NCBI RefSeq assembly: GCF_030056575.1
Contig: NZ_JASHHX010000005.1
Location: 62,001 to 126,000, forward strand
From: Rhodoblastus sp. 17X3
Lineage (GTDB): Bacteria > Pseudomonadota > Alphaproteobacteria > Rhizobiales > Beijerinckiaceae
Reading direction: 5' to 3'
DNA length: 64,000 bases
How positions within the stretch are numbered: position 1 is the first letter of the stretch; each line of letters opens with the position of its first letter. A program made the position numbers and the translations under genes. The notes below the pieces were generated by a model that was given only the letters and a program-made list of their open reading frames with translations, had not been told where the DNA came from and searched no databases. This document shows, piece after piece, positions 25,014-40,325 of the stretch.

Positions 25014-25060
25014 ATGTTACACGATTTTACAATTGTAATATCCGTGTATGTAACATGTAA
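25014..25060. promoter_or_regulatory. AT-rich repeat cluster, candidate upstream activator site (first copy)
   Basis: Within an AT-rich stretch lie TGTTACAC (25015-25022), the perfect palindrome TTACAATTGTAA (25027-25038) and ATGTAACATGTAA (25049-25061). The same TTACAATTGTAA occurs at 34513-34524, and GTTACAT-type elements recur there and before prmA. It lies about 140-190 bases upstream of the sigma-54 promoter at 25201, a normal distance for an enhancer-binding protein. Confidence 0.6.
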
Positions 25061-25200
25061 TATTATCTTACAGCACAAATATCGTGCTTAGTTGATGCAA
25101 ATTACATCGACAGACTTGTGCATTGCAACAATTAAAATTTCTCAGTCGCACATATGAGGAAAGCAAGGCGCATAACTTCACTATTTAATCCAACCTTTTC

Positions 25201-25216
25201 TGGCATAAACCTTGCC
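25201..25216 (+). promoter_or_regulatory. Sigma-54 (-24/-12) promoter before the DUF1097 gene
   Basis: TGGCATAAACCTTGCC has the GG-N10-GC spacing and close match to the TGGCAC-N5-TTGCW consensus. It lies 91 bases upstream of the DUF1097 start on the same strand and downstream of the TTACA/TGTAA repeats. The activator is inferred to be PrmR, the only sigma-54 activator gene in the window. Confidence 0.72.
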
Positions 25217-25306
25217 GACGCGATGTCGTGGGTGGAGCCGATATCGGAGAGCGATTGAGGCCTCCACTCTCGACAAAACGACAACAGAAATCAAAAAGGG
25301 ATGGAC

Positions 25307-25801
25307 ATGAAAACATTGCATGCAATCGCATTGGCCGTGGCCTTGCTCGTCGCCCCATGGGTCTATGTCAGCGTTGGCGCTCCCGCGCTGCACCTCAATG
25401 CCTGGATTGGCTTTATCGCGTGGGGCGCCTACTTTGCCGCCGGCGGCGGCGCACAAGCGATCCTCAAAGTCGGCTGTGCCGGGCTGGCGGGCATTGGCCT
25501 GACTTTTCTGACCTTGCTTGCCGTGCAATTTGCGGGCGGCGGATTGTGGCCGCTGATCGCCTTCGTGACAATCCTTGCCTTCGTTCTCGTGGCGATGGCG
25601 GACGTTTCGGCGCTCGCCTTCACGCCTGCCGCTTTCCTGGGCGCGGCGAGTTTCTTCGGCTCGCAGAGCCCGCTTGACGCCGCCGCCCTGTATGTCGCCT
25701 TGACCTGGGTGGCCGGCTTGGGACTGGGCTATGCTTCCGAGCGTCTTGGGAAATTGATCGCGGGCGGCGCCGGCGCCGAGTCCAAACTTTCCGAGATCTG
25801 A
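25307..25801 (+). CDS. DUF1097 family inner-membrane protein
   Basis: 164 aa with about five membrane helices: ALAVALLVAPWVYVSVGA, AWIGFIAWGAYFAAGG, CAGLAGIGLTFLTLLAVQFAG, WPLIAFVTILAFVLVAMADV and a C-terminal YVALTWVAGLGLGYASERLG. It matches the DUF1097 family (E. coli YcdZ is a member), whose transport or other role is unknown. ATG 25307 is preferred over ATG 25301 because the AAAGGG ribosome site would touch the latter. The notable point is the sigma-54 promoter and propane-type repeats upstream, which place it in the same predicted regulon as prmA. It might move a propane metabolite or small solute, but that is speculation. Confidence 0.82.
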   Translation: MKTLHAIALAVALLVAPWVYVSVGAPALHLNAWIGFIAWGAYFAAGGGAQAILKVGCAGLAGIGLTFLTLLAVQFAGGGLWPLIAFVTILAFVLVAMADVSALAFTPAAFLGAASFFGSQSPLDAAALYVALTWVAGLGLGYASERLGKLIAGGAGAESKLSEI

Positions 25802-25907
25802 TGTAAGCGAGACGAGGACGCGGCCGCGCCCGGCGACGGGATCGCGCAACGTGTCCGGGATGGCGACGGTCGCTGCTGCGATCGTCGCCTGATCTCTTTC
25901 GGGCAAA

Positions 25908-28607
25908 TCAAATGGACCAGGGAGCGGGCGCGTCCGCGTCGATCTCGTAACGTTGGATTGCCGAGGCCAATGTCTCCGGCTCAATCGCTCCTTCGCCGAC
26001 AAGCGCTTGCAATGCGGCGAGCACCGTCTGTTTCCGATCGACCTCAAAAAAGCGACGAAGACTTGTGCGCGTATCGCTTCGTCCGAAGCCGTCGGTTCCG
26101 AGCGTCACGTAACGCGCCTTGATGTATGGCGCGATCAGTTGCGGATAAGCGCGCACATAGTCGGTGACGGCGATCACGGGAACGCCTCCGCGCAAGCATT
26201 CGCCGACGTGAGAGGCTTTCGCGGGTTGTAACGGGTGTAGACGGTTCCACCGGTCCACTTTTCTGGCGTCATGCGCGAGTTCGCTGAAACTGGTGACGCT
26301 CCAAATTTCGCTCTCGATCCGCCAATCCTTCGCCAGCAGCTCTGCGGCGGCGATGACTTCAGGCAAAATCGCGCCCGACCCGAGAAGTCTCACTTTGCCG
26401 GCGGCGGTCCCGGCAACTTCATGGCCGCCAAAGAGATACATGCCTTTGATGATATCGTCTTCCGCGCCATCGGGCAGCGACGGCTGGGCGTAGTTTTCGT
26501 TCATGACGGTGATGTAATAGAAAGCGTCTTCCTGCGCTTCCAGCATTTGGCGCATGCCGTAATCGATGATTACCGCCAACTCGCCTGCGAAGGCAGGATC
26601 GTAGGCGCGGCAATTGGGAATCGTCGCCGCAATGACGTGACTTTGGCCATCCTGGTGTTGTAGCCCCTCGCCGCCAAGCGTCGTGCGCCCGGAAGTGGCG
26701 CCAAAGAGAAATCCTCTCGCGCGTTGATCAGCCGCGGCCCAAATCAGGTCGCCTACACGCTGGAAGCCGAACATCGAGTAGTAAATATAGAAAGGCAGCA
26801 TTGGTAGGCCATTGACGCTGTACGACGTTGCCGCGGCGACCCACGACGACAGCGCGCCTGCCTCGGTGATGCCCTCTTCCAGGATTTGGCCGTCCCTGGC
26901 CTCCCTGTAAAAGAGCAGCGATTTTGCGTCCTCTGGCTCGTAAAGCTGGCCAACCGGAGAATAGATGCCGACCTGACGGAACAGGTTGGCCATGCCGAAT
27001 GTCCGCGCCTCATCGGCGACAATCGGCACAATGCGCCGGCCAAGCTGCGCATCTTTCAGCAAGGTTCCAAAAATTCGCACCAAGGCCATCGTCGTCGACA
27101 TTTCCTTGCCGTCGGCGGTCAGGGCGAAATTCGCGTAATCGGCCAAGGGCGGGACTGGAACGACCAGCGCCCGGCTCCGCCGCGCAGGCAGATATCCGCC
27201 TAATTCCGCGCGGCGTTCGCGCAAATAATTCAGTTCCGGCCCGTCTTCAGCGGGTCGATAGAATTTCAACTGGACGAGATCATCATCGGTTAGAGGCAGC
27301 TGGAAGCGATCACGAAATGATTTGAGTCCAGCGATATCGAGCTTTTTGGTGGAATGGGCGGTCATGCGGGATTCGCCCGCTTCGCCCATCCCGTAACCCT
27401 TTTTCGTTTTCGCGAGGATAACGGTCGGCTTCCCCTGATGAGATTTGGCGGCCGCGAAAGCCGCGAAGAGCTTGCGGATATCGTGGCCGCCCCGCTTCAG
27501 CCCATCAATTTCGCTGTCGCTCATATGCGCGACGAGCGCCTTCAATTCCGGGTCTTCGTCAAAGAAATGCGTCAGGTTGTAACCGCCGCCTTTTGCTCCG
27601 AGCGTCTGGTATTTCCCATCCACGGTCGCCGCGAAGCGCTTCAGCAGCGCGTGGTTGACATCTCTGCTGAACAGCGCGTCCCATTCCGAGCCCCACAGGA
27701 CCTTGATGACATTCCAACCCGCGCCAGCTAAGAGCGCCTCCAGTTCCTGAATGATTTGTCCGTTGCCCCGCACCGGACCATCCAGGCGCTGAAGGTTGCA
27801 GTTGATGATAAAAGTGAGGTTGTCGAGTTTCTCTCGCGCCGCCAGCGTCAAACCGGCGATCGACTCCGGCTCGTCCATTTCGCCATCGCCGAAGACGCCC
27901 CAAACATGGCGAGCATCGGTCTTGGCCAAGCCGCGGTGTTCGAGGTAGCGCAGAAAGCGCGCCTGATAGATGGCGCTGATGGGGCCAATGCCCATCGAAC
28001 CCGTCGGAAACTGCCAGAAGTCCGGCATAAGCCAGGGATGCGGGTAGGAGCACAAACCCGAGCCGCCCGTTTCCCGCCGGTAATGGGCGAGTTGCTCCTC
28101 GCCCAAGCGCCCTTCAAGAAATGCGCGGGCATAGACCCCAGGGGCCGAATGGGGCTGGAAATAGACGAGATCCGCGCCCTGTTCGGCATCCGCGCCGCGG
28201 AAAAAATGATTGAAGCCGACCTCGAAAATTTCCGCGGCGGACGCATAGCTTGCGATGTGTCCGCCGAGTTCGCCATAGGCAATGTTCGCCCGGGACACCA
28301 TGGCGAGCGCGTTCCAGCGCATGATGGCGGTCAGCCTTTCTTCAATCGTCAGATCGCCAGGGAAGCGACCCTGCTTTTCAGCCGGAATCGTATTGCGGTA
28401 GGCTGAATAGGGCTGCGCATGGCCGGTCAGGCCCAACTCACGAGCGCGTTCTTCGAGCCGCTGAATGAGGAAGCTTCCGCGCTCGTCTCCAGCGAAGCTC
28501 ACAACAGATTCGAGTGCGTCAAGCCACTCTCGCGTCTCGGTCACATCGCTATCAGCGGCTGATCGTTGGGACGGTAGAGCCACGTCCGAGTTCGCTATTT
28601 GCGCCAT
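25908..28607 (-). CDS. Homodimeric 2-oxoacid (pyruvate or 2-oxobutyrate) dehydrogenase E1
   Basis: 899 aa, full length for the AceE-type homodimeric E1 component. It decarboxylates a 2-oxoacid with thiamine diphosphate and passes the acyl group to a lipoyl E2. The ThDP motif is GDGEMDEPES (about residue 240) followed by NLTFIINCNLQRLDGPVRGN. Other hallmarks are GGSGLCSYPHPWLMPDFWQFP, TKKGYGMG, and GGEGLQHQDGQSHV near residue 640. No E2 or E3 gene is adjacent. A divergent Lrp regulator beside a stand-alone AceE-like gene recalls mdeB-mdeR of Pseudomonas putida, where the E1 acts on 2-oxobutyrate. Either substrate is possible here; 2-oxobutyrate would fit C3/propionyl metabolism. Confidence 0.9.
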   Translation of the reverse strand: MAQIANSDVALPSQRSAADSDVTETREWLDALESVVSFAGDERGSFLIQRLEERARELGLTGHAQPYSAYRNTIPAEKQGRFPGDLTIEERLTAIMRWNALAMVSRANIAYGELGGHIASYASAAEIFEVGFNHFFRGADAEQGADLVYFQPHSAPGVYARAFLEGRLGEEQLAHYRRETGGSGLCSYPHPWLMPDFWQFPTGSMGIGPISAIYQARFLRYLEHRGLAKTDARHVWGVFGDGEMDEPESIAGLTLAAREKLDNLTFIINCNLQRLDGPVRGNGQIIQELEALLAGAGWNVIKVLWGSEWDALFSRDVNHALLKRFAATVDGKYQTLGAKGGGYNLTHFFDEDPELKALVAHMSDSEIDGLKRGGHDIRKLFAAFAAAKSHQGKPTVILAKTKKGYGMGEAGESRMTAHSTKKLDIAGLKSFRDRFQLPLTDDDLVQLKFYRPAEDGPELNYLRERRAELGGYLPARRSRALVVPVPPLADYANFALTADGKEMSTTMALVRIFGTLLKDAQLGRRIVPIVADEARTFGMANLFRQVGIYSPVGQLYEPEDAKSLLFYREARDGQILEEGITEAGALSSWVAAATSYSVNGLPMLPFYIYYSMFGFQRVGDLIWAAADQRARGFLFGATSGRTTLGGEGLQHQDGQSHVIAATIPNCRAYDPAFAGELAVIIDYGMRQMLEAQEDAFYYITVMNENYAQPSLPDGAEDDIIKGMYLFGGHEVAGTAAGKVRLLGSGAILPEVIAAAELLAKDWRIESEIWSVTSFSELAHDARKVDRWNRLHPLQPAKASHVGECLRGGVPVIAVTDYVRAYPQLIAPYIKARYVTLGTDGFGRSDTRTSLRRFFEVDRKQTVLAALQALVGEGAIEPETLASAIQRYEIDADAPAPWSI

Positions 28608-28690
28608 TTGAAGCCTCCTTCATTTGAAGCAGAACTTACCATGACGACCGGCGCAGCATCCGCCGAAGAGGGCTGCATAAGCGGCAATTT

Positions 28691-28738
28691 TCCGCATAAA
28701 CTACCATGAATCGCCCAATATGCAGCGTGTTATGCGGA
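28691..28738. promoter_or_regulatory. Inverted repeat between E1 and Lrp genes, probable Lrp operator
   Basis: TCCGCATAA (28691-28699) and TTATGCGGA (28730-28738) are exact reverse complements with 30 bases between them, in the gap between divergent genes. The spacing puts both arms on one face of the helix, as Lrp-type octamers like. The right arm covers the regulator's translation start area. Confidence 0.6.
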
Positions 28739-29214
28739 GATCGAACTTGGACGCAATAGATATCAAAATCCTTCGCGAGCTCCAGGAAAACGCCAAGCTC
28801 ACCAATGTTGAGCTCGCCTCCCGGGTCAACCTTTCGCCCTCTCCCTGTCTTGCGCGTGTTCGAGCGCTTGAGGCATCTGGTTGCATCAACCGCTATGTCA
28901 TCTTGTTGGATCCCTTGACCATGGGCTTGGGCGTCAGCGTATTCATTCAAGTCAGTCTCGAAAAGCAGGTCGAAAAAGCCTTGGAGATTTTTCAAGCCGC
29001 GATGCATCGCTACCCAGAGGTTATGGAGTGCTATTTGATGAGCGGGGAATCCGACTACATGCTGCGCGTCGTTGTCGAGGATATCCCGGCGTTTGAGCGC
29101 TTCATCATTGATAAACTGACCAAAATACAGGGCATTTCGCAAATACGTTCGAGCTTTGCTCTCAAACAGGTAAAATATAAAACGGCCCTTCCCTTGAATA
29201 TTCCGCAAAAATAG
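28732..29214 (+). CDS. Lrp/AsnC family transcriptional regulator
   Basis: 160 aa. The N-terminal helix-turn-helix is [45 protein letters not shown], followed by the ligand-sensing RAM domain ([10 protein letters not shown]...[30 protein letters not shown]). ATG 28732 is given, but TTG 28747 is a serious alternative: GGAGA lies six bases before it and the protein would then begin at LDAIDIK, as Lrp proteins normally do. It is divergent from the E1 gene and probably activates it in response to an amino acid, as MdeR does with methionine. The effector is not known. Confidence 0.9.
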
Positions 29215-29432
29215 TTTTTAGCGGGCTCGCCATTGCCCGGGTCTCGATCTGGCCGATGGCGGTTACGTCGACGCCAGCGCCCAAGCCACATGCGACTACG
29301 ATTGGCCGTGCACGGAGGTAAATGGGAACAATTTGAGCTTGGCCAGCAACCTTATGCTCGGTCGTGCGTATTATCGCCGATGACTAGCAATTACCGCTAG
29401 CCACAACTTGACCAGCCTCGGGAGGACGTGCA
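29215..29432 (+). other. Non-coding stretch with a possible gene tail
   Basis: One frame without a start reads GGYVDASAQATCDYDWPCTE and ends at TGA 29380-29382, looking protein-like but unrecognised. No complete gene is supported. Confidence 0.3.
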
Positions 29433-29711
29433 ATGCCAATCGCAACACAACGTACTTTCAGCTCGGTCGGCAAGTGCACAGCTTGCGCTATGCTGATCTT
29501 GGTAAGCATAGGCCAGACCACGAGCCTTGCCAACTCCAGTCACGCTCGCCGCGAAGGCGTCGGCGTCGATACTACTCAGTTCCACTTCCAAAAGCCCGTT
29601 GCCGCGTTCAGACATTGCCTGCCCGCGACAGGGGTGCAGGTGCTCGGTGGCTTCGCTTCCCCGGATGACTGGCTCGATCCCGACACCAACGAGATCTGCA
29701 ACCCACGGTGA
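29433..29711 (+). CDS. Small secreted protein of unknown function
   Basis: 92 aa, with a signal-peptide-like start (about residues 1-34, hydrophobic CAMLILVSIGQTTSLA) and a short mature part with two cysteines (FRHCLPATG and EICNPR). A strong GGGAGG ribosome site lies eight bases before ATG 29433, the main support for a real gene. I recognise no family. It is convergent with the GMC dehydrogenase gene. A minus-strand frame over the same bases is judged a shadow. Confidence 0.5.
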   Translation: MPIATQRTFSSVGKCTACAMLILVSIGQTTSLANSSHARREGVGVDTTQFHFQKPVAAFRHCLPATGVQVLGGFASPDDWLDPDTNEICNPR

Positions 29712-29815
29712 AACTGCCAGCCCTATCTCCAAGTGCGGGCGGCTGACCGCCGCCCGCACTTGCCATGAATCGCCCCCCAATGAGGACCGTCAGAGATAGC
29801 CGGCAAAACCGCCGG

Positions 29816-31387
29816 TCAGATGGCGCGCACGCTCATCTGCTGGGCGATATATTCGGCCTGACGAATTGCCAGAGAAACGATCGTCAATGTTGGATTTTCT
29901 GCGCCGCCAGTTGTGAACTGGCTCCCGTCCGACACAAAGAGATTCTTGATGTCGTGCGTCTGGCCCCATTTGTTGACGACGCCGTCGCGCGGGTGTGCGC
30001 TCATGCGGTTAGTGCCGAGATTATGCGTCGATGGATAGGGCGGCGTCGGAAATGTGCGGATGGCGCCGACCGACTCATAAAGCTTTCGGCCCTGCTGATA
30101 GGCGTGGTTTCGCATCGCCACGTCATTCGGGTGGTCGTCGAAATGCACGTCGGCGACGGGCAGGCCGAGCTTGTCCTTGACCGTTGCGCTGAGGGTGACG
30201 CGATTTTTTTCCTGCGGCATATCCTCGCCGACGATCCACAGGCCGGCCATGTTCGGATAATCATCCATGGCGCTGGTGAAGGTACGACCCCAGGCGCCCG
30301 GGTCGAGAAACGCCGCCATGAAAGGGACGCCCAGCGACAAAGTCTCCAGATTATAGCCGCCGACAAAGCCGCGGGAGGGATCGTTGCGCGCCTCGTCGTG
30401 GATCGCGCCGGCCATGATCGTGCCGCGATGCATATGCACCGGCTTGTCGAACGAGGCGTAGACCGAACCTGTGGTGTGACGCATGTAATTGCGCCCCACC
30501 TGCCCCGAGGAATTGGCAAGGCCCTGGGGATATTTCGACGAGGCGGACAACAGAAGGAGCCTTGGGCTCTCGATCGAATTGCCGGCGACGCAGACGATCC
30601 GCGCCTTCTGGCGCTGCTTGTTTCCGTCCTTATCGACATAGACCACGGCGTTCACTTTGCCCGCGTCGTCATGCTCGATGCGCAAAACCCGCGATTGCGG
30701 CCGCACTTCCATGTGCCCTGTCGCTTCGCCTTTCGGAATCTCCGTATAGAGCGTCGACCATTTCGCGCCCCATTTGCAGCCCTGGAAGCAGAAACCGGTC
30801 TGCTGGCAGGAATTGCGGTTGTCGCGCTCGACCGAATTGATCGCCATACGGCCGGTATTGCATTCCTTGTAGCCGAGCTTGTCGGCGCCGGCCTTGAACA
30901 CTTTGAAGTTGTTGTTGCCCGGCAGGCCCGGCAGGCCATTGGTGCGCGTCACGCCCATCTTATCCTCGGCGCGGGCGTAGTAGGGCTCCAGCTCTTCCAG
31001 CGTGATTGGCCAGTCGAGCAGATTGGCGCCGTCGATCTTGCCATAAGTTGTCAGGGTCTTGAACTCGTGCGGCTGGAAGCGCAGCGAAGCGCCCGCCCAA
31101 TGGGTGGTGGTGCCGCCAACCGATTTGACGATCCAGGCCGGAAGGTTGGGAAAATTCTTCGCGACGCGCCAAGTGCCGGAGGTGGTGCGCGCATCGGTCC
31201 ACGCGAGCTGGGCGAAGCTCTCCCATTCGTCGTTGACGAAATCGTCGGTCGTCAGCCGCGGTCCGGCTTCGAGAATGACGACATTCACGCCCTTCTGGGC
31301 CAGCTCATTGCCGAGCGTTCCGCCCCCCGCGCCGGAGCCAATGATGACGACGACGTTGTCGTCGTTGAGTTCGAATTTCGCAACCAT
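29816..31387 (-). CDS. GMC-family dehydrogenase, gluconate-dehydrogenase-like large subunit
   Basis: 523 aa flavoprotein. The FAD-binding GSGAGGG is at residues 17-23 (VVVIIGSGAGGGTLGNELAQ), followed by GGTTTHWAGASLRFQP. A cysteine-containing CQQTGFCFQGCKWGAKWS segment lies near residue 195. The C-terminal active-site region has STHNLGTNRMSAHP and AENPTLTIVSLAIRQAEYIA. The family oxidises alcohols, polyols and aldonic acids and passes electrons to a cytochrome or quinone. The Tat-exported small subunit is encoded 24 bases upstream; no cytochrome c subunit is seen. In Methylocella a similar GMC gene has been linked to growth on propane intermediates such as acetol, as I recall; here that role is inferred from the neighbouring prm operon. 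Confidence 0.88.
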   Translation of the reverse strand: MVAKFELNDDNVVVIIGSGAGGGTLGNELAQKGVNVVILEAGPRLTTDDFVNDEWESFAQLAWTDARTTSGTWRVAKNFPNLPAWIVKSVGGTTTHWAGASLRFQPHEFKTLTTYGKIDGANLLDWPITLEELEPYYARAEDKMGVTRTNGLPGLPGNNNFKVFKAGADKLGYKECNTGRMAINSVERDNRNSCQQTGFCFQGCKWGAKWSTLYTEIPKGEATGHMEVRPQSRVLRIEHDDAGKVNAVVYVDKDGNKQRQKARIVCVAGNSIESPRLLLLSASSKYPQGLANSSGQVGRNYMRHTTGSVYASFDKPVHMHRGTIMAGAIHDEARNDPSRGFVGGYNLETLSLGVPFMAAFLDPGAWGRTFTSAMDDYPNMAGLWIVGEDMPQEKNRVTLSATVKDKLGLPVADVHFDDHPNDVAMRNHAYQQGRKLYESVGAIRTFPTPPYPSTHNLGTNRMSAHPRDGVVNKWGQTHDIKNLFVSDGSQFTTGGAENPTLTIVSLAIRQAEYIAQQMSVRAI

Positions 31388-31411
31388 GTTTCTCTCCCGA
31401 ATTCTTGTCGT

Positions 31412-31972
31412 TCACAACCAGTCGAGGTCGTCGAAGCCGCGATGGATGTAGCCGCCCTTGGAATAGGACTCGCCCTCGTAGCCAAAGAGCGGCCAGATTT
31501 CCTTTTGGTTGTAGAGCGACACGACCAGCGCCGAGCGCACGGCTTCAAACATCGCCGTGCTGGAGATCTTGTTGAGAAGGGCGACGCGGTCGGCCTCCCA
31601 GGGAACCGCGACATAGCCGCCGGGGCCCGCCAGCGCGTTGAGCTCAGCGACGCCCTTTTCGAACATTTCCTTCTGCGCGGGATCGGCGGCGGCCTTCTGG
31701 TCGAAAGGCTTGGCGGCGATAGCGTAATAGCGGTCGGCGATCCGGTCATGCGGATAGATATCGCGCGACAACAAGATCAGAGTCTTGAGCGTTTCAGGCC
31801 GGAGACCCTTGACCTCGAGAGCCCATGATTCTTCTGCGTTCAGCAACGCCCCGCCCATTGTGACGCTGATCGCCGCGGCCAGAGTGACCCCGGAAGACCG
31901 GCGAAGAAATATGCGGCGGCTCAGCGACGAAGGAGCGTGTGAATGGTCGTGATGATGCTTGTGTTCCGTCAT
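31412..31972 (-). CDS. Gluconate 2-dehydrogenase subunit 3-like protein, Tat-exported
   Basis: 186 aa. The N-terminus is histidine-rich (HKHHHDHSHA) and then carries a twin-arginine leader, SRRIFLRRSSGVTLAAAIS. The mature part matches the gluconate_2-dh3 family: LKTLILLSRDIYPHDRIADRYY and later LYNQKEIWPLFGYEGESYSKGGYIHRGF. In this family the small subunit carries the folded flavoprotein to the periplasm by the Tat route. A GGGGAGGA ribosome site precedes ATG 31972. The histidine stretch ahead of the leader is unusual and may bind metal or be cleaved. Confidence 0.87.
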   Translation of the reverse strand: MTEHKHHHDHSHAPSSLSRRIFLRRSSGVTLAAAISVTMGGALLNAEESWALEVKGLRPETLKTLILLSRDIYPHDRIADRYYAIAAKPFDQKAAADPAQKEMFEKGVAELNALAGPGGYVAVPWEADRVALLNKISSTAMFEAVRSALVVSLYNQKEIWPLFGYEGESYSKGGYIHRGFDDLDWL

Positions 31973-32175
31973 GTTGTTTCCTCCCCACGGGATTGGAACG
32001 CGCCCGTTTGATTGGTTATTGGACCGAGACGCCTGATTGGAAAAGGAGATCAGCGGTATCAGCCGCGCAAGGACGCCTCTTCACGGCGCAAGTTGATCGA
32101 ATGTTCGAAACTAACGTGAGGATCAGACGCCGGGTGGTATGCTGCTAATACCTTCCAATAAATCGGCAGCCTTTT

Positions 32176-32472
32176 CTATGCTGCGCGCCTGGCGTCCTCG
32201 CGGCGATTGAGACGATCGCCCTCCTGCGCGACGATGCAAATGCAGCGAAGATGCGATGTGAAATTGGGCACGTCGCCCCTGAGGAGCAGGATCTCCTGAT
32301 GCACGGAAGAAATGAATCGGGGAAGCTTGAGTCCCATCTGTTCAGCAACGGTTTCGAGCCGTTGCCAAAAAATCTTCTCGAGCCGGATGCTCGTGGATTG
32401 TCCGTTCAATCGAAGCGAGCGCGTCTCAAAGGCGTAACTATCTGGATCCTGGCTTGCAAAAAAATGGCACAT
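32176..32472 (-). CDS. Ribbon-helix-helix domain protein (RHH_4 type)
   Basis: 98 aa. It begins MCHFFASQDPDSYAFETRSL and continues with LNGQSTSIRLEKIFWQRLE, the ribbon-helix-helix signature of the RHH_4 family. The family is found in Alphaproteobacteria and presumed to bind DNA or a partner protein. GTG 32478 lies two codons earlier; ATG 32472 is preferred because family members start MCRxF. The gene lies between the 60-aa gene and the GMC dehydrogenase pair, all on the minus strand, so it may regulate this set. Its C-terminal tail after RCICIVA is variable. Confidence 0.75.
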   Translation of the reverse strand: MCHFFASQDPDSYAFETRSLRLNGQSTSIRLEKIFWQRLETVAEQMGLKLPRFISSVHQEILLLRGDVPNFTSHLRCICIVAQEGDRLNRREDARRAA

Positions 32473-32588
32473 TTCCACTATCCCACGATATTCTTGGCGC
32501 CTCGGCAGTGTCTTGAGAGATCAGAAGCGCAGCGTGAACTCTGAAGGCCTTCGCGGCCGACCAAACCACAAGCGGCGGCGGCAGCACG

Positions 32589-32771
32589 TCATTCGGCGCC
32601 TTGCGACTGAAGCTTGCCCTCGGCGATCCAGCGGACCGCCATCAGAAGCGCGCCCATAGAGAAATCCTTTCCATGTGCGGCGACCATATTCTCCGACAAT
32701 TGCGCGAGCTCCTGAAAGAAAGCGTCCTTGCTTTCTTCCTCCGCCGATAATTGAGCCGATTGATTTTGCAT
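32589..32771 (-). CDS. Small 60-aa protein of unknown function
   Basis: 60 aa, acidic at the N-terminus (SAEEESKDAFFQELAQ) and helical, ending in MGALLMAVRWIAEGKLQ. No family is recognised and there is no signal peptide. AAGGAAA lies just before ATG 32771, and the gene follows the WD40 gene by 23 bases, so co-transcription is likely. The frame extends upstream but that part runs through the end of the WD40 gene. Its position in a set with WD40 and coiled-coil genes suggests a small adaptor; this is inference only. Confidence 0.6.
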   Translation of the reverse strand: MQNQSAQLSAEEESKDAFFQELAQLSENMVAAHGKDFSMGALLMAVRWIAEGKLQSQGAE

Positions 32772-32794
32772 GGCGTTTTCCTTGGGGTTGGACG

Positions 32795-33910
32795 TTATTT
32801 GAACATGACGGGGGGGAATCCGATGATCGCCGCTTCGTCGCGCCCTCCCGCGGCGAGACTCTTTCCATCGGAAGACCACGCGAGGGATGTCACGCCGCTC
32901 TTGAACGCTCCGACAATCAGTTCGTCGCGGGAACCGGGCCGAGCGAGAATAACGTGCCCATTTTCATAACCAACCGCGACGACGTCATTCCGAGGATTGA
33001 CCGCGAGACACCGAGTTGCAACGAGGCGAGCGCGACCAGTTTCCAGCGCCCCCGAGTGGTCGCCATCGAAAGGTGGATGCGCCAGCGACCACGCGACAAT
33101 TCTGAATGCCCCGGATGCGAACAATCTGTCCGACTGTCGCGCCCAACCGATCGATTGCACCGCCGACGGAAAGCCGGAGATGGCTCCAAATCGATTGCGC
33201 GCCAGATCAATGAGCGCGAAGCCGGACGTTTCAAGAGCGACGCTCACCCAGGAACCATTCGGACTCCAGATAATGTCAGTCGGCTTCGCCGGAAGAGCGT
33301 AGCGGGCGCGCGCTTCGCAAGCGCCCAGGGTGTCGAAAATCACGATGTGATCGGGAATTGCGCAGGCGAGCAGCGCACCGTCGGGAGAGATCCTCAGAGC
33401 GCAGGCGGCATCCGCCTTCAAGGATCCGGAGACATTATAGCCGCTCGCCAAAGTGATGTTTTCGGGCGTCGCAAACGCCAAGCGACCGTCCTTTTGACGA
33501 CAGTCCATCGCGACGATGGGCGCTCCCGTTTTCAGACCGGTCGGAGAAATGCGGCCATCCGCGCCCATGCGGCGAATTTCGCCATCCGATTGCCCGATCA
33601 GATATTCGGAATCGATCCCCTCCGTGAGGATCGGGGAACCTTCCGCCGGAGCGCCCACGACGACGAGCGGACGCACGCGCTCCTTGCGCCGCCTGATTGT
33701 CATCCGCCCGCTCTCGGTGTCGATGCGGGTTCGCGCTTCCGCGGAATCGTTATCCGCAGCCTCGGCGAGACGGATTGAGCCGTCATCCAGCAAAAACGCA
33801 ATGCTTGACCGATCCGCGCCGAAGCAAATCTGTCGCACGGGCGATTGAACGCTCCACTGCCGCCCCATCAACTCAAACATACTCGCTTCATTGCCTATGT
33901 GCTGGTTCAT
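32795..33910 (-). CDS. WD40-repeat-like beta-propeller protein
   Basis: 371 aa composed of recurring blade-like units. Examples are SPDGALLACAIPDHIVIFD, SPNGSWVSVALETSGFALID, NPRNDVVAVGYENGHVILA and SSDGKSLAAGGRDEAAIIGF, each with the S/N-P/S-D/N-G turn of WD40-type propellers. Six or seven blades would fill the length. There is no signal peptide, so it is predicted to be a cytoplasmic scaffold. It starts at ATG 33910 (weak ribosome site) or ATG 33880 (MFELMG). It lies 24 bases downstream of the coiled-coil gene and just upstream of the 60-aa gene. The partner and role are unknown; a propeller gene in a propane-oxidation island is unexpected. Confidence 0.8.
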   Translation of the reverse strand: MNQHIGNEASMFELMGRQWSVQSPVRQICFGADRSSIAFLLDDGSIRLAEAADNDSAEARTRIDTESGRMTIRRRKERVRPLVVVGAPAEGSPILTEGIDSEYLIGQSDGEIRRMGADGRISPTGLKTGAPIVAMDCRQKDGRLAFATPENITLASGYNVSGSLKADAACALRISPDGALLACAIPDHIVIFDTLGACEARARYALPAKPTDIIWSPNGSWVSVALETSGFALIDLARNRFGAISGFPSAVQSIGWARQSDRLFASGAFRIVAWSLAHPPFDGDHSGALETGRARLVATRCLAVNPRNDVVAVGYENGHVILARPGSRDELIVGAFKSGVTSLAWSSDGKSLAAGGRDEAAIIGFPPVMFK

Positions 33911-33934
33911 GATTGCCCCGTACTCGTGCTCTCT

Positions 33935-34252
33935 CTATGAATCCTTGGCGAGGCCATTGAAGAAGCCGTCGATCTTTTTGATTTCGGCTTCTACCGAATC
34001 CATCTCCAGTTCGAGCTTCATCCGATCGCGTCGAATTTCATGAGCGACACGCTCGGCCTGGATCACGGCGGCGGCCGCCTCCGCAACATCCAAGCCAGCC
34101 TCCAACGCCAATTCGCAACGCTGCATTTCGAAATCGAGACCCGCCTGCGCTTGCTGAAGGCGCTGTAACTGCGCGTTGATTTGACAAGCCTGACCGACCA
34201 GTTGCAGGCGACGCATCAACATGTTCCGGCTCGCCGGCCCGGAATCCGTCAT
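33935..34252 (-). CDS. Small coiled-coil protein, first gene of the WD40 set
   Basis: 105 aa, almost wholly helical with heptad-like pattern: LQLVGQACQINAQLQRLQQA (about residues 15-35), a middle alanine-rich helix, and IRRDRMKLELEMDSVEAEIKK (about 75-95). ATG 34252 is chosen because AAGGAG lies six bases upstream; the TTG at 34270 would include the ribosome site in the protein. No family is recognised. It precedes the WD40 gene by 24 bases, so the two products may form a complex. Two cysteines are present, within the coiled-coil part. Confidence 0.65.
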   Translation of the reverse strand: MTDSGPASRNMLMRRLQLVGQACQINAQLQRLQQAQAGLDFEMQRCELALEAGLDVAEAAAAVIQAERVAHEIRRDRMKLELEMDSVEAEIKKIDGFFNGLAKDS

Positions 34253-34462
34253 CAGCAACTCCTTTGGCAAATACTTGAATCGTCATGAGATCGAGCGCAG
34301 CCATCGAAACGGGCCCGATCACTCAAGCCAGCCTCAATTCAAGCTCCAACCCTCGGCCTTGACCCGAGATCCAGTTAAAGGACCCACAAAGATCCCAGCC
34401 GACCGCCCCATTCCAGAAATCAAAATATAAGCACTTGCCCATCATTTCAAGTACAAAATAAT

Positions 34463-34544
34463 AATATTGCACTGCAATATTGAAAAACGCGCGCGCATTA
34501 CATGCGCTCGATTTACAATTGTAAAAAAACGTTACATGTGTAAC
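34463..34544. promoter_or_regulatory. AT-rich repeat cluster, candidate upstream activator site (second copy)
   Basis: Three palindromes lie close together: AATATTGCA-C-TGCAATATT (34463-34481, perfect), TTACAATTGTAA (34513-34524, perfect) and GTTACA-TG-TGTAAC (34531-34544, perfect arms). The run TTACAATTGTAAAAAAACG then GTTACAT aligns with TTACAAGTGTCAAGAAACG then GTTACAT before prmA, so the two regions look like diverged copies. The sigma-54 promoter at 34601 begins 57 bases after the last palindrome. Confidence 0.7.
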
Positions 34545-34600
34545 GGTAAAACATCTATACACCCCCTCCTTATTGCAAGCAATTCCACGCATTCAGCGCT

Positions 34601-34616
34601 TGGCATGTCGATTGCT
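34601..34616 (+). promoter_or_regulatory. Sigma-54 promoter without a recognisable gene
   Basis: TGGCATGTCGATTGCT shows GG-N10-GC spacing and a close match to the -24/-12 consensus. Transcription would start near 34627 and run to the hairpin at 34861-34896. No protein with a convincing start codon is found in that interval. Confidence 0.7.
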
Positions 34617-34626
34617 CTTCAAGCCC

Positions 34627-34860
34627 AGGTAAAGAAATCACGTCAAACGCGGCGCAATAAAAGCACCAGGACGGAAAGGAGCGGCAGCCAAACGGTTGCG
34701 TCCCGAACCGCCGTCGTCGCCAGCTGGAAAGATTTGAAAGTCATCGTGGCCACGAACAAGGACGAGGGGGCCAAACCTTACTCGTCCCTGCCGGATTTCG
34801 AGACGGAACCCGGCAGATAAACAATCTGATCGCCCTTACCCTCCCAAGGACGATCGTGAA
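34627..34860 (+). other. Short predicted transcript of unclear content
   Basis: Between the sigma-54 promoter and the downstream hairpin lies a GGAAAGGAG ribosome-site-like sequence (34675-34683 region) and an open frame ending at TAA 34818-34820 (SWKDLKVIVATNKDEG... in its last part). No ATG, and no GTG or TTG at a suitable distance, opens this frame after the site. It could be a small RNA, a leaderless or non-canonically started peptide, or what remains of a gene lost by deletion. Confidence 0.35.
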
Positions 34861-34896
34861 GGCGCGCGCCAGCCAAGAAGTCGCCTGGCGCGCGCC
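34861..34896 (+). terminator. Strong hairpin ending the short transcript
   Basis: GGCGCGCGCCAG and CTGGCGCGCGCC form a perfect 12-base stem around a 12-base loop. No T-tract follows, so it may be a terminator of the strong-hairpin type or an RNA stabiliser. Confidence 0.6.
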
Positions 34897-34941
34897 AATT
34901 CGAAATACACGGCTGTCACGTTACGCGGAACGAGCGCGAGC

Positions 34942-35145
34942 ATGCCGACGAGGATGAACGGGCCGCAACTCGTCAAAGAACTCGCGCGACCAGCTGGCCG
35001 TCGATTTTCCGAATTGATTTTGACCGGTGAAACCGACAGCGCGACACTTGCTCACATTCCCGGAAGCGGCATTGCATTGGCGCGCAAGCCAGCCACAAAG
35101 GAAGAACTGCGAGAAAAGTTGTCTTCGCTGCCGTCGCAATCAACA
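34942..35145 (+). pseudogene. Relic of a response-regulator receiver domain
   Basis: The frame reads MPTRMNGPQLVKELARPAGR, LTGETDSATLAHIPGSGIAL and ARKPATKEELREKLSSL. This follows the second half of receiver domains of hybrid histidine kinases (MPGxMNGxxLAxEA, then TTGY, then the conserved KP lysine). The phospho-acceptor aspartate that normally lies three residues before MP, and everything before it, is missing. Continuation after the KP helix is unrelated. It is a fragment of a lost sensory gene between two sigma-54 control regions. Confidence 0.6.
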
Positions 35146-35509
35146 GACATTCGCCGGAGCCTGTTCAATTCGGCGTCCATGCGAGCCGCAGTTCGCGCCG
35201 GTCGGAGCTCGGGCTGCCCAAGCGCCCGCTGACGAAACCGAGGCCTTCGTCAATCCGGATCGCGTTTGCAGAGGTGGCGTTGACGGGGACGTCTGTGACG
35301 CTGCCCGCGCACACATTTGCACGCACGAATTCGACCGCGCGTCGTCGCAAAAAAAGCGCCGAACAAAACTCGAAACCGGCGCATGCAAACGATGGGCTTC
35401 CGTCTTTGGCGCTGACTCGCATTGCCAATAAATGACAAGTCGCGCGCTACGCCGGAGCCGCTCCATTTCGCCCATTAAACCACACGGGCCGCACACAGTT
35501 AAATCCGGG
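35146..35509. other. Intergenic remnant region
   Basis: Both strands have short frames with no recognisable family, no convincing starts and mixed composition. It looks like degenerate DNA between the receiver relic and the prm control region. Confidence 0.4.
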
Positions 35510-35511
35510 AA

Positions 35512-35605
35512 CAATAATATTGCGATGCAAAAACAATTATTCCGCAATTGCTAACGTAACGATTCCGCATTGGCAGAATTACAAGTGTCAAGAAACGTTA
35601 CATAC
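35512..35605. promoter_or_regulatory. Repeat cluster upstream of prmA, candidate activator site (third copy)
   Basis: AATAATATTGC-GA-TGCAA (about 35515-35529) resembles the perfect AATATTGCA palindrome at 34463. GTAAC at 35555-35560 and GTTACAT at 35597-35603 are inverted to each other around TTACAAGTGTCAA. The region lies 73 bases or more upstream of the sigma-54 promoter. It is AT-rich compared with its surroundings. Confidence 0.62.
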
Positions 35606-35675
35606 GGAGCTCATCAACCGATAATATTTCATCCACATACCCATATTCTATTGGTGTTCGCGATATTTTTGCACT

Positions 35676-35691
35676 TGGCACGCCTGTTGCT
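35676..35691 (+). promoter_or_regulatory. Sigma-54 promoter of the prm operon
   Basis: TGGCACGCCTGTTGCT is a near-perfect -24/-12 element (TGGCAC-N5-TTGCW, GG-N10-GC). It lies 267 bases before the prmA ATG, so the transcript would have a leader of about 250 bases. PrmR (43329-45422), a sigma-54 activator, is the obvious candidate regulator. Confidence 0.88.
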
Positions 35692-35957
35692 AACAGATGC
35701 TCGAACGAAGATGCCGTCTTAAACGCGGTTAAATAAATAAAATACGATGGGATGGAAAATGGAAGCTGATCGCGTGCGCGCCGCGCGATCGACGTCGTAA
35801 TTCCGAACACAGATTCCAATATGCGCCGCTTGTCCTGTGTTCAATCAGGACACGCTACGCGAATAAGCTACTGCTTCAACCAGCGCAAAGCTGTTTAGAG
35901 GCAGTGATGTCCGGCTTTCAAAGCTGGGGATATAGAAGGACCAAAAGGGAGTAAGAA

Positions 35958-37625
35958 ATGAACGCTATCACCCTCAATAAAATCACTTCTCAACGCGGAA
36001 TTTCGGTGGGAGAGGCGACGAAGAAAATCGCCGATCTGGGTTGGAATCCCTCCTATGTCCAGGAAGCGATGACCTTTCCCACCGATTACAAGATCACCAA
36101 AGCGCCGCGCGACCCGATGAAGCAGGTTCTGCGTTCCTATTTCCCGACGCAGGAAGAAAAGGACAATCGCGTCTATGGCGCGCTCGACGCGGCCCTGCGC
36201 GGCGACATGTTCCGCAATGTCGAGCCCCGCTGGGTCGAATGGATGAAGCTGTTCCTCGGCATCATTCCCTTCCCCGAGATTTCGGCCGCGCGTTCGATGG
36301 CCATGGTGGCCCGCATTGCGCCGGGCGAAGAACTGCGCACCGGCTTCACGATGCAGATGGTGGACGAATTTCGTCACTCCACCATCCAGATGAATCTGAA
36401 GAAGTGGTACATGGAAAACTATATCGACCCGGCCGGGTTCGATATTACCGAGGAAGCCTTCGGCAAGTGCTACGCGACCACGATCGGGCGCCAGTTCGGT
36501 GAAGGCTTCATCACCGGCGACGTCATGACCTCGGCGTGTATGTATCTGACGGTCGTCGCCGAAACGGCCTTCACTAACACGCTCTTCGTCGCGATGCCCT
36601 CCGAGGCCGCGCGCAACGGCGACTATGCGCTGCCGACGGTGTTCCTCTCCGTGCAGTCGGACGAAAGCCGCCACATCGGCAATGGCCACTCCCTGCTCAT
36701 GGCTGCTTTGAAGGAGCCGGAAAACCACCTGCTGCTTGAGCGCGATCTGCGCTACGCCTTCTGGCAGAACCATGCGATCGTCGACGCGGCCATCGGCACC
36801 ATCATCGAATACGGCACCACCAACCGCGACAAAAACAAGGAATCCTACGCGGAAATGTGGCACCGCTGGATCTTCGAAGATTACTATCGCACCTACATGC
36901 TTCCGCTGGAGAAATACGGCGTCAAGGTCCATCATGACGACGTCCATGAAGCGTGGAACCGCATCACCAAGAAGCACTACGTCCACCGCGTCGCGCAGTT
37001 CTTCGCGGTCGGCTGGCCAGTGAACTTCTGGCGCATCGAAGCCCAGCGGGAAGCCGACTTCGAATGGTTCGAAGCCAAATATCCAGGCTGGTACGCGGAG
37101 TTCGGCGACTTCTGGAAATGGTATGACAAGCTCAGCAAGCCTGGCAGCAAGGTCATCACCTTCAATGAAGAGACCGGATACGTCTACCCGCATCGCTGCT
37201 GGAGCTGCCTGGTTCCCTGCCTGATCCGCGAGGACATGGTGGTCGACGAGATCGACGGCAAGTTGCACACCTTCGCGCATGAGCTGGATCGCTGGACGGC
37301 CGTCGAGGCCTTCGCCGGCGAATTCCAGGGTCGCCCGACGCCCGCGATGGGCCGCTTCAGCGGCAAGCGCGAATGGGAATCGGTCTATCATGGTTGGGAC
37401 CTCGCCGATGCGATCAAGGACCTCAACTTCGTCCGCTCGGACGGCAAGACGCTGGTGCCGCAGCCGCATCTGCGTTTCGACGACAAGGACATGTGGACGC
37501 TTGACGACGTGCGCGGCCACACCCTGCTTTCGCCGCTCGAAACCCTGCGCGCGATGACCCCCGCCGATCGCGAGAAGCATCTCGCCGAATATCGCGCGGG
37601 CTTCAAGATCAAGGCCTTCAACTAA
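35958..37625 (+). CDS. prmA: Propane monooxygenase hydroxylase large (alpha) subunit
   Basis: 555 aa. This is the diiron-bearing alpha subunit of a soluble diiron monooxygenase; with NADH and O2 it hydroxylates propane, mainly to 2-propanol in known PrMO enzymes. Iron ligands are visible in the two E-x-x-H motifs: VDEFRHST (residues 136-140) and SDESRHIGNG (235-239). EISAARSMAM (about 107) supplies the first glutamate. The gene order alpha-reductase-beta-coupling is that of propane monooxygenases; soluble methane monooxygenase has mmoXYBZDC. AGGGAG precedes ATG 35958. The sigma-54 promoter lies at 35676. Confidence 0.95.
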   Translation: MNAITLNKITSQRGISVGEATKKIADLGWNPSYVQEAMTFPTDYKITKAPRDPMKQVLRSYFPTQEEKDNRVYGALDAALRGDMFRNVEPRWVEWMKLFLGIIPFPEISAARSMAMVARIAPGEELRTGFTMQMVDEFRHSTIQMNLKKWYMENYIDPAGFDITEEAFGKCYATTIGRQFGEGFITGDVMTSACMYLTVVAETAFTNTLFVAMPSEAARNGDYALPTVFLSVQSDESRHIGNGHSLLMAALKEPENHLLLERDLRYAFWQNHAIVDAAIGTIIEYGTTNRDKNKESYAEMWHRWIFEDYYRTYMLPLEKYGVKVHHDDVHEAWNRITKKHYVHRVAQFFAVGWPVNFWRIEAQREADFEWFEAKYPGWYAEFGDFWKWYDKLSKPGSKVITFNEETGYVYPHRCWSCLVPCLIREDMVVDEIDGKLHTFAHELDRWTAVEAFAGEFQGRPTPAMGRFSGKREWESVYHGWDLADAIKDLNFVRSDGKTLVPQPHLRFDDKDMWTLDDVRGHTLLSPLETLRAMTPADREKHLAEYRAGFKIKAFN

Positions 37626-37663: not shown

Positions 37664-37771
37664 CTCACATCCAACCGGAATCACGAACCGCCGCGCTGAA
37701 ACGCGTTGGCCGGACAAGAAGAGTTTACCTGCTTTCGCCTGTCGAAAGCCGAGGTTTGGGAGAGAATTTCT

Positions 37772-38833
37772 ATGAGCGGCACCCATATAGTTCGCCTCAC
37801 GCCCGTCGGGGTCGAATATGAGGTCAACGATGGCGAAACCCTCCTCAACGCCGCGTTCCGCCAGGGCATCGCGCTGCCGCATGGATGCAAGGAAGGTCAG
37901 TGTTCGGCCTGCAAATGCATCCTGACGGACGGCGAAGTCGACATGTTGAAATATTCGACCTTCGCCTTGAACGACGGCGAAAAGGACAGCGGCCAAATCC
38001 TCCTTTGCCGCGCTCGCGCCTATTCCGATCTTGAGATCGAACTGCTCAATTACGATGAAGAAGTCCTCTCAAAATCCATCGCGGTCAAAACCTTCAGCGG
38101 AAAGATCGCGCATATCGAGAAGCTGACGCACGACATTCGCGGCATCGAAATCGACCTCAGCGATTCGATGAAGTTCTGGGCCGGTCAATATGTCGACATC
38201 ACTGTCTCGACCTCGCAGGGCGAGACGATTACGCGCTCATTTTCCATGGCGAACGCGCCTTCGGAAACGCGGAAACTCTCATTCATCATCAAGAAATATC
38301 CGGAAGGAAAATTTTCCGGCGAGCTCGATTCGGGCGGCATCAAACTCGGCGCGGAAGTGTCGATCGTCGGTCCTTATGGATCGTGTTTCAGGCGCGAAAA
38401 TCGCGATGGCCCGTTGATCCTGGTCGGCGCCGGATCGGGCATGTCGCCGGTCTGGTCGATCCTCAACGATCATCTCGCCAGCGGCGAAGATCGTCCCGTC
38501 TATTTCTTTTATGGGGCGAGGACGCGCGATGACCTGTTCCATCTCGATCGCATCGCCGGTCTGATCGATGGACGGCCCAACGTCCATTTCATTCCCGTCC
38601 TGTCCCATGCCGGCGATGACGCCGCCTGGACCGGCGAGCGCGGCTTCGTACACGAGCGTGTCGACGCGCGGCTCAAGGAGCTCGGGATCGATGGGCAAGG
38701 CGATGTCTACGCCTGCGGGCCGCCGCCGATGATCGACGCGCTGCAGCCCGTTCTGTTCATGAACGGTTTTGAGTCCGAGCGAGTCTTCTTCGACCGTTTC
38801 ACCACATCTTCCGGCGCTCCAGCAGGACATTGA
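37772..38833 (+). CDS. prmB: Propane monooxygenase reductase
   Basis: 353 aa. It transfers electrons from NAD(P)H through FAD and a [2Fe-2S] cluster to the hydroxylase. The ferredoxin domain ligands are Cys39, Cys44, Cys47 and Cys79 (HGCKEGQCSACKC ... LLCRA). The FAD-binding part has ITRSFSMANAP, and the NAD-binding part has LILVGAGSGMSPVWSIL and DVYACGPPPMIDA near the end. ATG 37772 follows GGGAGAG; a longer frame to 37706 lacks a ribosome site. It lies 146 bases after prmA, behind the hairpin, and 50 bases before prmC. Confidence 0.94.
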   Translation: MSGTHIVRLTPVGVEYEVNDGETLLNAAFRQGIALPHGCKEGQCSACKCILTDGEVDMLKYSTFALNDGEKDSGQILLCRARAYSDLEIELLNYDEEVLSKSIAVKTFSGKIAHIEKLTHDIRGIEIDLSDSMKFWAGQYVDITVSTSQGETITRSFSMANAPSETRKLSFIIKKYPEGKFSGELDSGGIKLGAEVSIVGPYGSCFRRENRDGPLILVGAGSGMSPVWSILNDHLASGEDRPVYFFYGARTRDDLFHLDRIAGLIDGRPNVHFIPVLSHAGDDAAWTGERGFVHERVDARLKELGIDGQGDVYACGPPPMIDALQPVLFMNGFESERVFFDRFTTSSGAPAGH

Positions 38834-39942: not shown

Positions 39943-39956
39943 GGGAGTCAAACAAT

Positions 39957-40325
39957 ATGTCCACATCAGCGAGAGATTCGTCGCACGCCAATATTTTCAA
40001 AACGATGGACACCATCACTTTTGAAGAGACGATTTCGCATCAGTGCGGCGTCACGATGAGCGACTCCGTCGAGGCCCGCGCCATCGCCGAATTCATGGCG
40101 CAAAAGCCGGATGTCATCATCACGTATCAGCCGGCGCTGATCCGCATCGACGGCGTCGGCAAGCTGATCTTCAAGATGGATGAAATCTCCGATTATCTCG
40201 GTCGCGAGATGACTGCGGAGATGTTCGAAGTGAACGCCTCCACCCATTACGGGCGGATGGTGCGGGTCGACGACAACACGATCATCCTGTTCGGCGATAT
40301 GACCGAAATGGAAGAATACATCTAA
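39957..40325 (+). CDS. prmD: Propane monooxygenase coupling (effector) protein
   Basis: 122 aa. It is the small cofactor-free regulatory component (MmoB/DmpM family) that binds the hydroxylase and tunes oxygen activation. The domain spans about residues 30-115: CGVTMSDSVEARAIAEFMAQ, ITYQPALIRIDGVGKLIFKM and HYGRMVRVDDNTIILFGDM. GGGAG precedes ATG 39957 at the normal distance, and a longer frame back to 39840 lies inside prmC. A GC-rich hairpin with a UUCG-type loop follows the stop. Confidence 0.94.
   Translation: MSTSARDSSHANIFKTMDTITFEETISHQCGVTMSDSVEARAIAEFMAQKPDVIITYQPALIRIDGVGKLIFKMDEISDYLGREMTAEMFEVNASTHYGRMVRVDDNTIILFGDMTEMEEYI

Follow-up and report, generated by a model that had tools for sequence, protein, structure and literature searches.

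Do three sigma-54 control regions in one stretch of DNA from Rhodoblastus sp. 17X3 answer to a single activator protein? The stretch (the window; 64,000 nucleotides) is a part of contig 44 (C44) of a 4.18-Mb genome (G000), and carries the prmABCD monooxygenase genes together with prmR, the gene of a sigma-54 activator. Region 1 precedes a gene for a DUF1097 membrane protein, region 3 precedes prmA, and region 2 is located about 1 kb upstream of region 3. The original prediction held that one protein may control all three. This part of the prediction has good support in regions 2 and 3, which share a conserved enhancer and are promoter copies; its extension to region 1 is likely without being secure. 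We consider it probable that PrmR has three targets in this genome, namely regions 1, 2, and 3.

The strict promoter pattern YTGGCAYN5TTGC, scanned on both strands, occurs in the window at starts 25200, 34600, and 35675 only, with TGGCA beginning at 25201, 34601, and 35676. The GG-N10-GC promoters had thus been placed originally to within one base. The predicted promoters of region 1 (CTGGCATAAACCTTGCC, 25200–25216), region 2 (TTGGCATGTCGATTGCT, 34600–34616), and region 3 (TTGGCACGCCTGTTGCT, 35675–35691) are all on the plus strand. Each has a −24 GG and a −12 GC with 10 bases between them, and all fit YTGGCAYN5TTGCW, save for the last W of region 1. The strict pattern is uninformative genome-wide, because its 8 matches compare with 5 for the reversed pattern. 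The local cluster of three promoters in 64 kb is unlikely by chance (Poisson P ~3e-4 at the genome rate, these three included, and 7e-5 at the control rate). Other strict promoters were considered as hidden members of the regulon and rejected: the four on contig 1 have neither TTACA nor TGTAA in the 200 bp upstream, and the one on contig 5 has three TGTAA.

Upstream of the promoters lie arrays of TTACA and TGTAA half-sites. A genome-wide search for such palindromes near promoters, proposed with the original prediction, places the palindrome TTACANNTGTAA at 25027, 34513, and 34532 of the window (reversed control, one place), and all three copies are less than 200 bp upstream of two of the three promoters. 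The AT-rich repeat described as identical in regions 1 and 2, with a variant before prmA, is indeed present: TTACAATTGTAA occurs at 25027 and 34513, and TTACAAGTGTCA, with one mismatch, at 35579; a TTACA half-site follows at 35598. A further exact palindrome, TTACATGTGTAA at 34532, had not been listed as such. GTTACAT-type elements occur in all three regions, as had been noted, at 34531 and 35597 and in the reverse form ATGTAAC at 25048.

From the sequences upstream of prmA in relatives we defined a composite enhancer, TTACANNTGTAA-N7-TTACA, in which a third site follows the palindrome at a distance of 19 bp; region 1 played no part in the definition. At up to one mismatch, the composite occurs in this genome solely in the three regions, and the reversed control gives no match. 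The enhancer of region 2 (34498–34543, plus strand) is composed of a half-site at 34498 and the palindromes at 34513 and 34532, 19 bp apart, so that it matches the composite exactly in both orientations; it is the sole perfect double palindrome in the genome. The composite of region 3 has one mismatch (35579–35602, plus strand). Region 1 carries the composite inverted, as TTACAATTGTAA and a third half-site, also with one mismatch (25015–25038, minus strand; C44:87015–87038). Additional half-sites at 25049–25072 include an exact TGTAA-N7-TTACA at 25056–25072, a form that the genome contains three times (control, once), and the 200 bp upstream of the region 1 promoter hold seven half-sites altogether. 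At another of these three positions, C1:466613, the 2.3 kb examined contain no sigma-54 match, with one mismatch allowed. When the 200 bp upstream of each promoter were shuffled with their composition preserved, the composite was matched by 0, 0, and 1 of 5000 shuffles for regions 1, 2, and 3, and the palindrome alone by 6, 3, and 81.

The enhancer is conserved in front of prmA in other bacteria. We compared the best 80 of 366 confirmed prmA relatives (the named relatives), which by their titles appear to be Rhizobiales and Rhodobacterales, and 8 other genomes of the same family. Most Rhizobiales loci have a sigma-54 promoter about 210–335 bp before prmA, and an exact or near-exact TTACANNTGTAA 70–130 bp farther upstream. 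In 59 forward loci aligned on the palindrome, TTACANNTGTAA is followed by 7 bases, often AATAACG, and then by TTACA, and a second palindrome usually lies 13 bp before the first. These loci were picked for the composite at up to two mismatches, so that the conservation of the motif letters is in part a product of this choice, whereas that of the spacer and the upstream palindrome is independent of it. At up to one mismatch, the composite lies upstream of prmA in 35 of 51 relatives' loci, forward in 33 and inverted in 2, and across 64 genomes it has 42 matches in 37 genomes (reversed control, 12). The two inverted cases (L046 and L048) are both from Mesorhizobium and give the inverted array of region 1 a precedent at prmA.

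A strict unit, consisting of the exact palindrome, a gap of 50–110 bp, and the strict promoter, is present in 39 of the 51 prm genomes that were chosen (the control gives none), at prmA in 38 relatives and at region 2 here; because the genomes were chosen from loci mostly showing the site, the count speaks for the specificity of its position and not for how frequent it is. Each genome with the unit has it in one place or in two nested ones. All 30 strict-unit matches that came with loci are in prm loci or, for G000 itself, in the window. Among 81 relatives' loci the unit is found in 39 (38 named ones and L010), always within 700 bp upstream of prmA, and the nine genomes whose matches had no accompanying locus are all among these 39. 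The enhancer conserved at prmA stands, at no more than one mismatch, in all three regions and nowhere else in the Rhodoblastus genome. A composite away from prmA in G167 has no sigma-54 match in the surrounding 5 kb. Five genomes of the same genus gave no composite match, and none of them had a prmA match either. In the prm loci of two genera of the same family (g4 and g40), whose PrmA proteins are 76–78% identical, the enhancer was not found. A locus of Limibaculum (G164:C16, L194:4946–8070) has two overlapping composites and a sigma-54 promoter before a 157-residue open reading frame (ORF) followed by prmR, which suggests autoregulation of PrmR there.

The candidate activator, PrmR (prmR, 43329–45422, minus strand), is a 697-residue GAF-AAA+-Fis protein with a GAFTGA motif in its AAA+ domain and a Fis-type helix-turn-helix, as in enhancer-binding proteins. 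Sigma54_activat matches number 17 in the genome; 12 are strong (at least 171 bits), and one is located on the window's contig. PrmR carries the sole GAFTGA motif of the window, in agreement with the earlier claim of a single sigma-54 activator nearby. Among 88 loci, the composite at up to two mismatches is present at prmA in 49 of the 60 in which the PrmR-type helix SRPTLYR was seen and in 10 of the 28 in which it was not, a comparison confounded by kinship and by prmR genes lying outside the fetched loci. Four of these ten loci (L039, L044, L072, and L074) stop early at contig ends.

In this family of proteins, a hexameric activator binds two or three dimer sites and loops to a poised sigma-54 polymerase. 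We infer that PrmR would bind the TTACA/TGTAA array, in which TTACANNTGTAA is joined by TTACA 19 bp on and often by another palindrome or half-site 13–15 bp before. It would then loop to RNA polymerase-sigma-54 at the −24/−12 promoters 60–180 bp away, and open these presumably sigma-54-dependent promoters upon sensing a substrate or product. Region 3 would serve as the prmABCD promoter at the ancestral distance. Region 2, a promoter copy about 1 kb upstream with the best-matching enhancer in the genome, would fire toward prmA. Region 1 would drive a DUF1097 gene that joined the regulon by way of an inverted array.

About 300 bp of regions 2 and 3 can be aligned with each other; under loose settings the local score is 51, and the highest of 300 shuffles reaches 37. 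Against the single prmA promoter of G037, either region scores above every one of 300 shuffles. Both regions contain two ungapped repeats, 28 and 21 nt long and 86% identical, whose copies are 1066 and 1053 bp apart; one is the duplicated upstream element at 34457–34477 in region 2 and 35510–35530 in region 3. The similarity continues past the promoters. The leaders of regions 2 and 3 align with a score of 35 (shuffle maximum, 30), and in comparisons with the leaders of 22 relatives, shuffles did as well in 2 of 500 cases for region 2 and 47 of 500 for region 3. The earlier impression that the two regions align as if duplicated is borne out: judged from these alignments, they are paralogous copies of one prmA promoter, and the copy extends into the 5' leader. 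Region 2, with a leader remnant at 34618–34700 (plus strand), appears to be the better-preserved copy, since its leader is nearer to those of the relatives. It is region 3, not region 2, that sits at the ancestral distance from prmA. The conservation of the composite at prmA, the usual presence of a PrmR relative nearby, and the origin of the two regions as promoter copies together make one shared activator for regions 2 and 3 a well-supported prediction.

It is possible, if rather unlikely, that region 2 is a non-functional relic of the duplication and that prmA is driven by region 3 only. Of 88 other loci, none has a pair of sigma-54 sites within 1800 bp upstream of prmA (68 have one and 20 none at the threshold used), and no conserved coding sequence was found in the roughly 800 bp downstream of the region 2 promoter. 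A relic would be expected to decay, however, and region 2 looks intact: its enhancer fits the composite exactly, whereas that of region 3 has a mismatch, its promoter matches the consensus, and the start of its leader has diverged less. A protein product of the interval between regions 2 and 3 was considered and rejected. A six-frame comparison of 34620–35430 with 28 relatives' loci gave weak, scattered matches (3 of 28 for one frame and 1 of 28 for another), and the ORFs at 34467 and 35027 have no Pfam match. No counterpart of the 173-residue ORF located in G037 between the 111-residue ORF and prmA was found here. Transcripts of region 2 may read into prmA, because a consensus scan of the plus strand found no terminator-like site between 34250 and 36000.

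Region 1 is a different case. The protein encoded by the DUF1097 gene (25307–25801, plus strand; its start was placed by visual inspection, with the ribosome-binding site and the start of the paralog as guides) turned up in a single one of 397 genomes sampled within the taxonomic order, the present one, and in one of 37 genomes of another set. Several comparisons weigh against placing its promoter under PrmR. In forward orientation, the common stretch of regions 1 and 2 is limited to a 17-nt motif, regions 1 and 3 do not align (286 of 300 shuffles as good), and the region 1 leader is unrelated to the prmA leaders (500 of 500 shuffles as good). The sites of region 1 lie at −183 to −98 from the promoter, unlike those of region 2 (−102 to −61) and region 3 (−96 to −77). 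When one of the two is reversed, regions 1 and 2 resemble each other. Reversed region 1 and region 2 agree without gaps at 30 of 49 positions, and outside the palindrome at 18 of 37, which 24 of 5000 shuffles reached. With gaps, region 1 against reversed region 2 scores 31 under strict settings and narrowly beats all 500 shuffles (maximum, 30); under loose settings 36 of 500 shuffles are as good. Judged by these alignments, region 1 is not a promoter copy and carries the array inverted.

The assignment of region 1 is further weakened by a paralog of its gene in the operon of another activator, which has a related site at similar distances. The paralog, 76% identical (G000:C5:100130–100600), is located on contig 5 between genes for a pyrroloquinoline quinone (PQQ)-alcohol dehydrogenase and an aldehyde dehydrogenase, behind a Rieske-protein gene (L108:631–7356). 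This operon has its own sigma-54 promoter at C5:103083, with TTACATGTGTTA, one mismatch from TTACANNTGTAA, 127 bp upstream, and a divergent 660-residue sigma-54 activator (C5:103373–105355). The activator and its paralog on contig 23 we label AcoR-like. The contig-5 activator might control region 1, so that both DUF1097 genes share one regulator and PrmR acts on regions 2 and 3 only. The TGTAA sites of the contig-5 promoter, at −165 to −131, are near the span of those in region 1, and the activator's helix RITLYR is nearer to the RPTLYR of PrmR than is the RTTIHR of the contig-23 paralog. The contig-23 paralog and several relatives of the contig-5 activator have, by eye, CCACA-type palindromes near sigma-54 promoters. 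The contig-5 sites are built differently, however, with TGTAA repeats 9 and 25 bp apart and no exact palindrome, and the contig-5 promoter region is not among the genome-wide composite matches. Aligned forward with region 1, the contig-5 promoter is equaled by 121 of 500 shuffles under strict settings and by 70 of 500 under loose ones; in reverse, a short strict match is reached by 3 of 500 shuffles, and the loose one by 109 of 500. The idea that region 1 was copied directly from the contig-5 promoter was rejected, as there is no forward alignment. We doubt that the contig-5 activator controls region 1, and retain it as the main rival of PrmR, whose control of this region we hold to be more probable than its opposite.

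The explanation of all three regions by PrmR also has to accommodate the relatives. Twelve of the 51 genomes lack any strict unit, and no relative showed one away from prmA. A regulon of several promoters is therefore not the usual arrangement, and the three-promoter layout looks like a local extension. The helix occurs without the site in 11 loci (nine of Rhodobacterales type and two from Roseibium), whose PrmR proteins are 45–51% identical. The palindrome with one mismatch is not enriched genome-wide (15 places against 42 for the control), and this, together with its occurrence in 81 of 5000 shuffles, makes region 3 by itself a modest case. The strength of the motif rests in its exact form and in the composite, not in the loose palindrome.

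A more elaborate joint reading appears improbable to us. Region 2 would be a remote enhancer shared by its own promoter and a weaker prmA promoter 1.1 kb away, and would also produce a PrmR-controlled structured noncoding RNA from the prmA leader, and region 1 would represent a duplicated alcohol-operon DUF1097 gene rewired by an inverted copy of the array. A chance origin of the shared sites, for which the 60–67% A+T content of the 200-bp upstream stretches in a window of 62% G+C and the unenriched one-mismatch palindrome might speak, is highly improbable and was rejected, as the composite hardly ever arises in shuffles, is confined to the three regions in the genome-wide search, and is conserved at prmA in relatives.

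The putative region 2 transcript (34628–34910 from the predicted start onward, plus strand) folds strongly (z −4.46). It contains a perfect 12-bp inverted repeat at 34861–34896, which may be an ordinary genomic element, since GGCGCGCGCCAG-like words are over-represented in the window (12 against 4.4 expected). The prmA 5' leader of Rhodoblastus (35693–35957, plus strand) is similar in length to those of the relatives and has diverged in sequence. In most relatives the leader is about 245–305 nt long and strongly conserved (L010:13705–14000 and 21 other loci). An alignment of 23 sequences predicts 25 pairs, with 94% of cells paired; 12 pairs are changed on both sides (0 of 500 shuffles), and further pair types occur at a level reached by 33 of 500 shuffles, in figures inflated by the relatedness of the sequences and by derivation of the structure from the alignment on which it was tested. 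One predicted helix pairs the ribosome-binding region. Rfam gave no leader match in L010 and L072 (one tRNA elsewhere) and no match in the window. The conserved leader is a possible riboregulator.

Downstream of region 3, all on the plus strand, follow prmA, encoding the large hydroxylase subunit (35958–37625), prmB, the reductase (37706–38833; ORF limits, the true start not being settled), prmC, the second hydroxylase subunit (38884–39942), and prmD, an MmoB/DmpM coupling protein (39840–40325; ORF limits, with the true start probably further in). This is the gene order of propane-type diiron monooxygenase clusters. The next gene (40457–42088, plus strand), kept in 79 of the 80 named loci, presumably encodes a GroEL-like protein and would correspond to prmG, and a Phenol_MetA_deg family gene also belongs to the cluster. 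Divergent from prmA, on the minus strand, are genes for a WD40-repeat protein and a 111-residue protein (33935–34270 and 32795–33910); relatives of the WD40 gene occur in 79 of the 80 named loci, and those of the 111-residue protein in 25 of 28 loci compared with lax settings. The DUF1097 gene adjoins a homodimeric 2-oxoacid dehydrogenase E1 gene, whose top NCBIfam match is TIGR03186 (alpha-ketoglutarate dehydrogenase), and a divergent Lrp/AsnC regulator gene (25908–28607 and 28720–29214). Elsewhere in the genome, two diiron monooxygenases resemble toluene-4-monooxygenase (G000:C1:163871–167295; E 3.5e-123) and phenol hydroxylase (G000:C1:183437–185334; E 6e-119); neither of them closely resembles methane monooxygenase. 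The prm enzyme presumably belongs to group 5 of the soluble diiron monooxygenases (passages of PMC7660913).

The composite TTACANNTGTAA-N7-TTACA can be tested as the DNA code of a widespread monooxygenase activator and predicts a three-promoter PrmR regulon in one genome. The locus would be a case of regulon growth through promoter duplication and rewiring of a paralog, and would link a DUF1097 protein to the oxidation of short-chain alkanes, alcohols, or ketones. In searches of the open-licence PMC literature, a description of this enhancer was not found, which is no proof of its being unpublished. Looping and a requirement for three sites are described for NorR in passages of PMC8899819. According to passages of PMC6615313, similar binding domains accompany similar sites, and 170 of 263 such activators in Clostridiales (65%) have one target operon. 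The single target in prm relatives fits this pattern, so the three targets here would be a local extension.

A close likeness is to the prmABCDGR cluster of Methylocella, which has the same monooxygenase genes with G and R genes (passages of PMC6778391 and PMC7660913); these passages give no enhancer sequence, second promoter, or DUF1097 target, unlike the locus described here. The Methylocella enzyme is also implicated in growth on 2-propanol and acetone (passages of PMC7660913), and the substrate of the prm system may be propane, 2-propanol, or acetone. The BmoR-PBMO system of Thauera butanivorans shares a sigma-54 promoter, a dedicated activator of an alkane monooxygenase, and an upstream inverted repeat, but its enhancer is located 193 bp upstream of the core promoter, and the likeness drawn here is one of layout (passages of PMC8899819 and PMC8784404). 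MmoR of the soluble methane monooxygenase system serves a different monooxygenase; a consensus −24/−12 promoter before mmoX, an activator, and a GroEL-like MmoG in the cluster are common features (passages of PMC5874634, which contain no enhancer sequence). Within the Rhodoblastus genome, the activators of the contig-5 and contig-23 alcohol operons resemble PrmR in their use of sigma-54, in their Fis-type binding domain, and in sites of the form NNACA-NN-TGTNN. They differ in the CCACA-type half-sites of several relatives, in the layout of the repeats, and in that the contig-5 operon contains genes for a PQQ-alcohol dehydrogenase and an aldehyde dehydrogenase.

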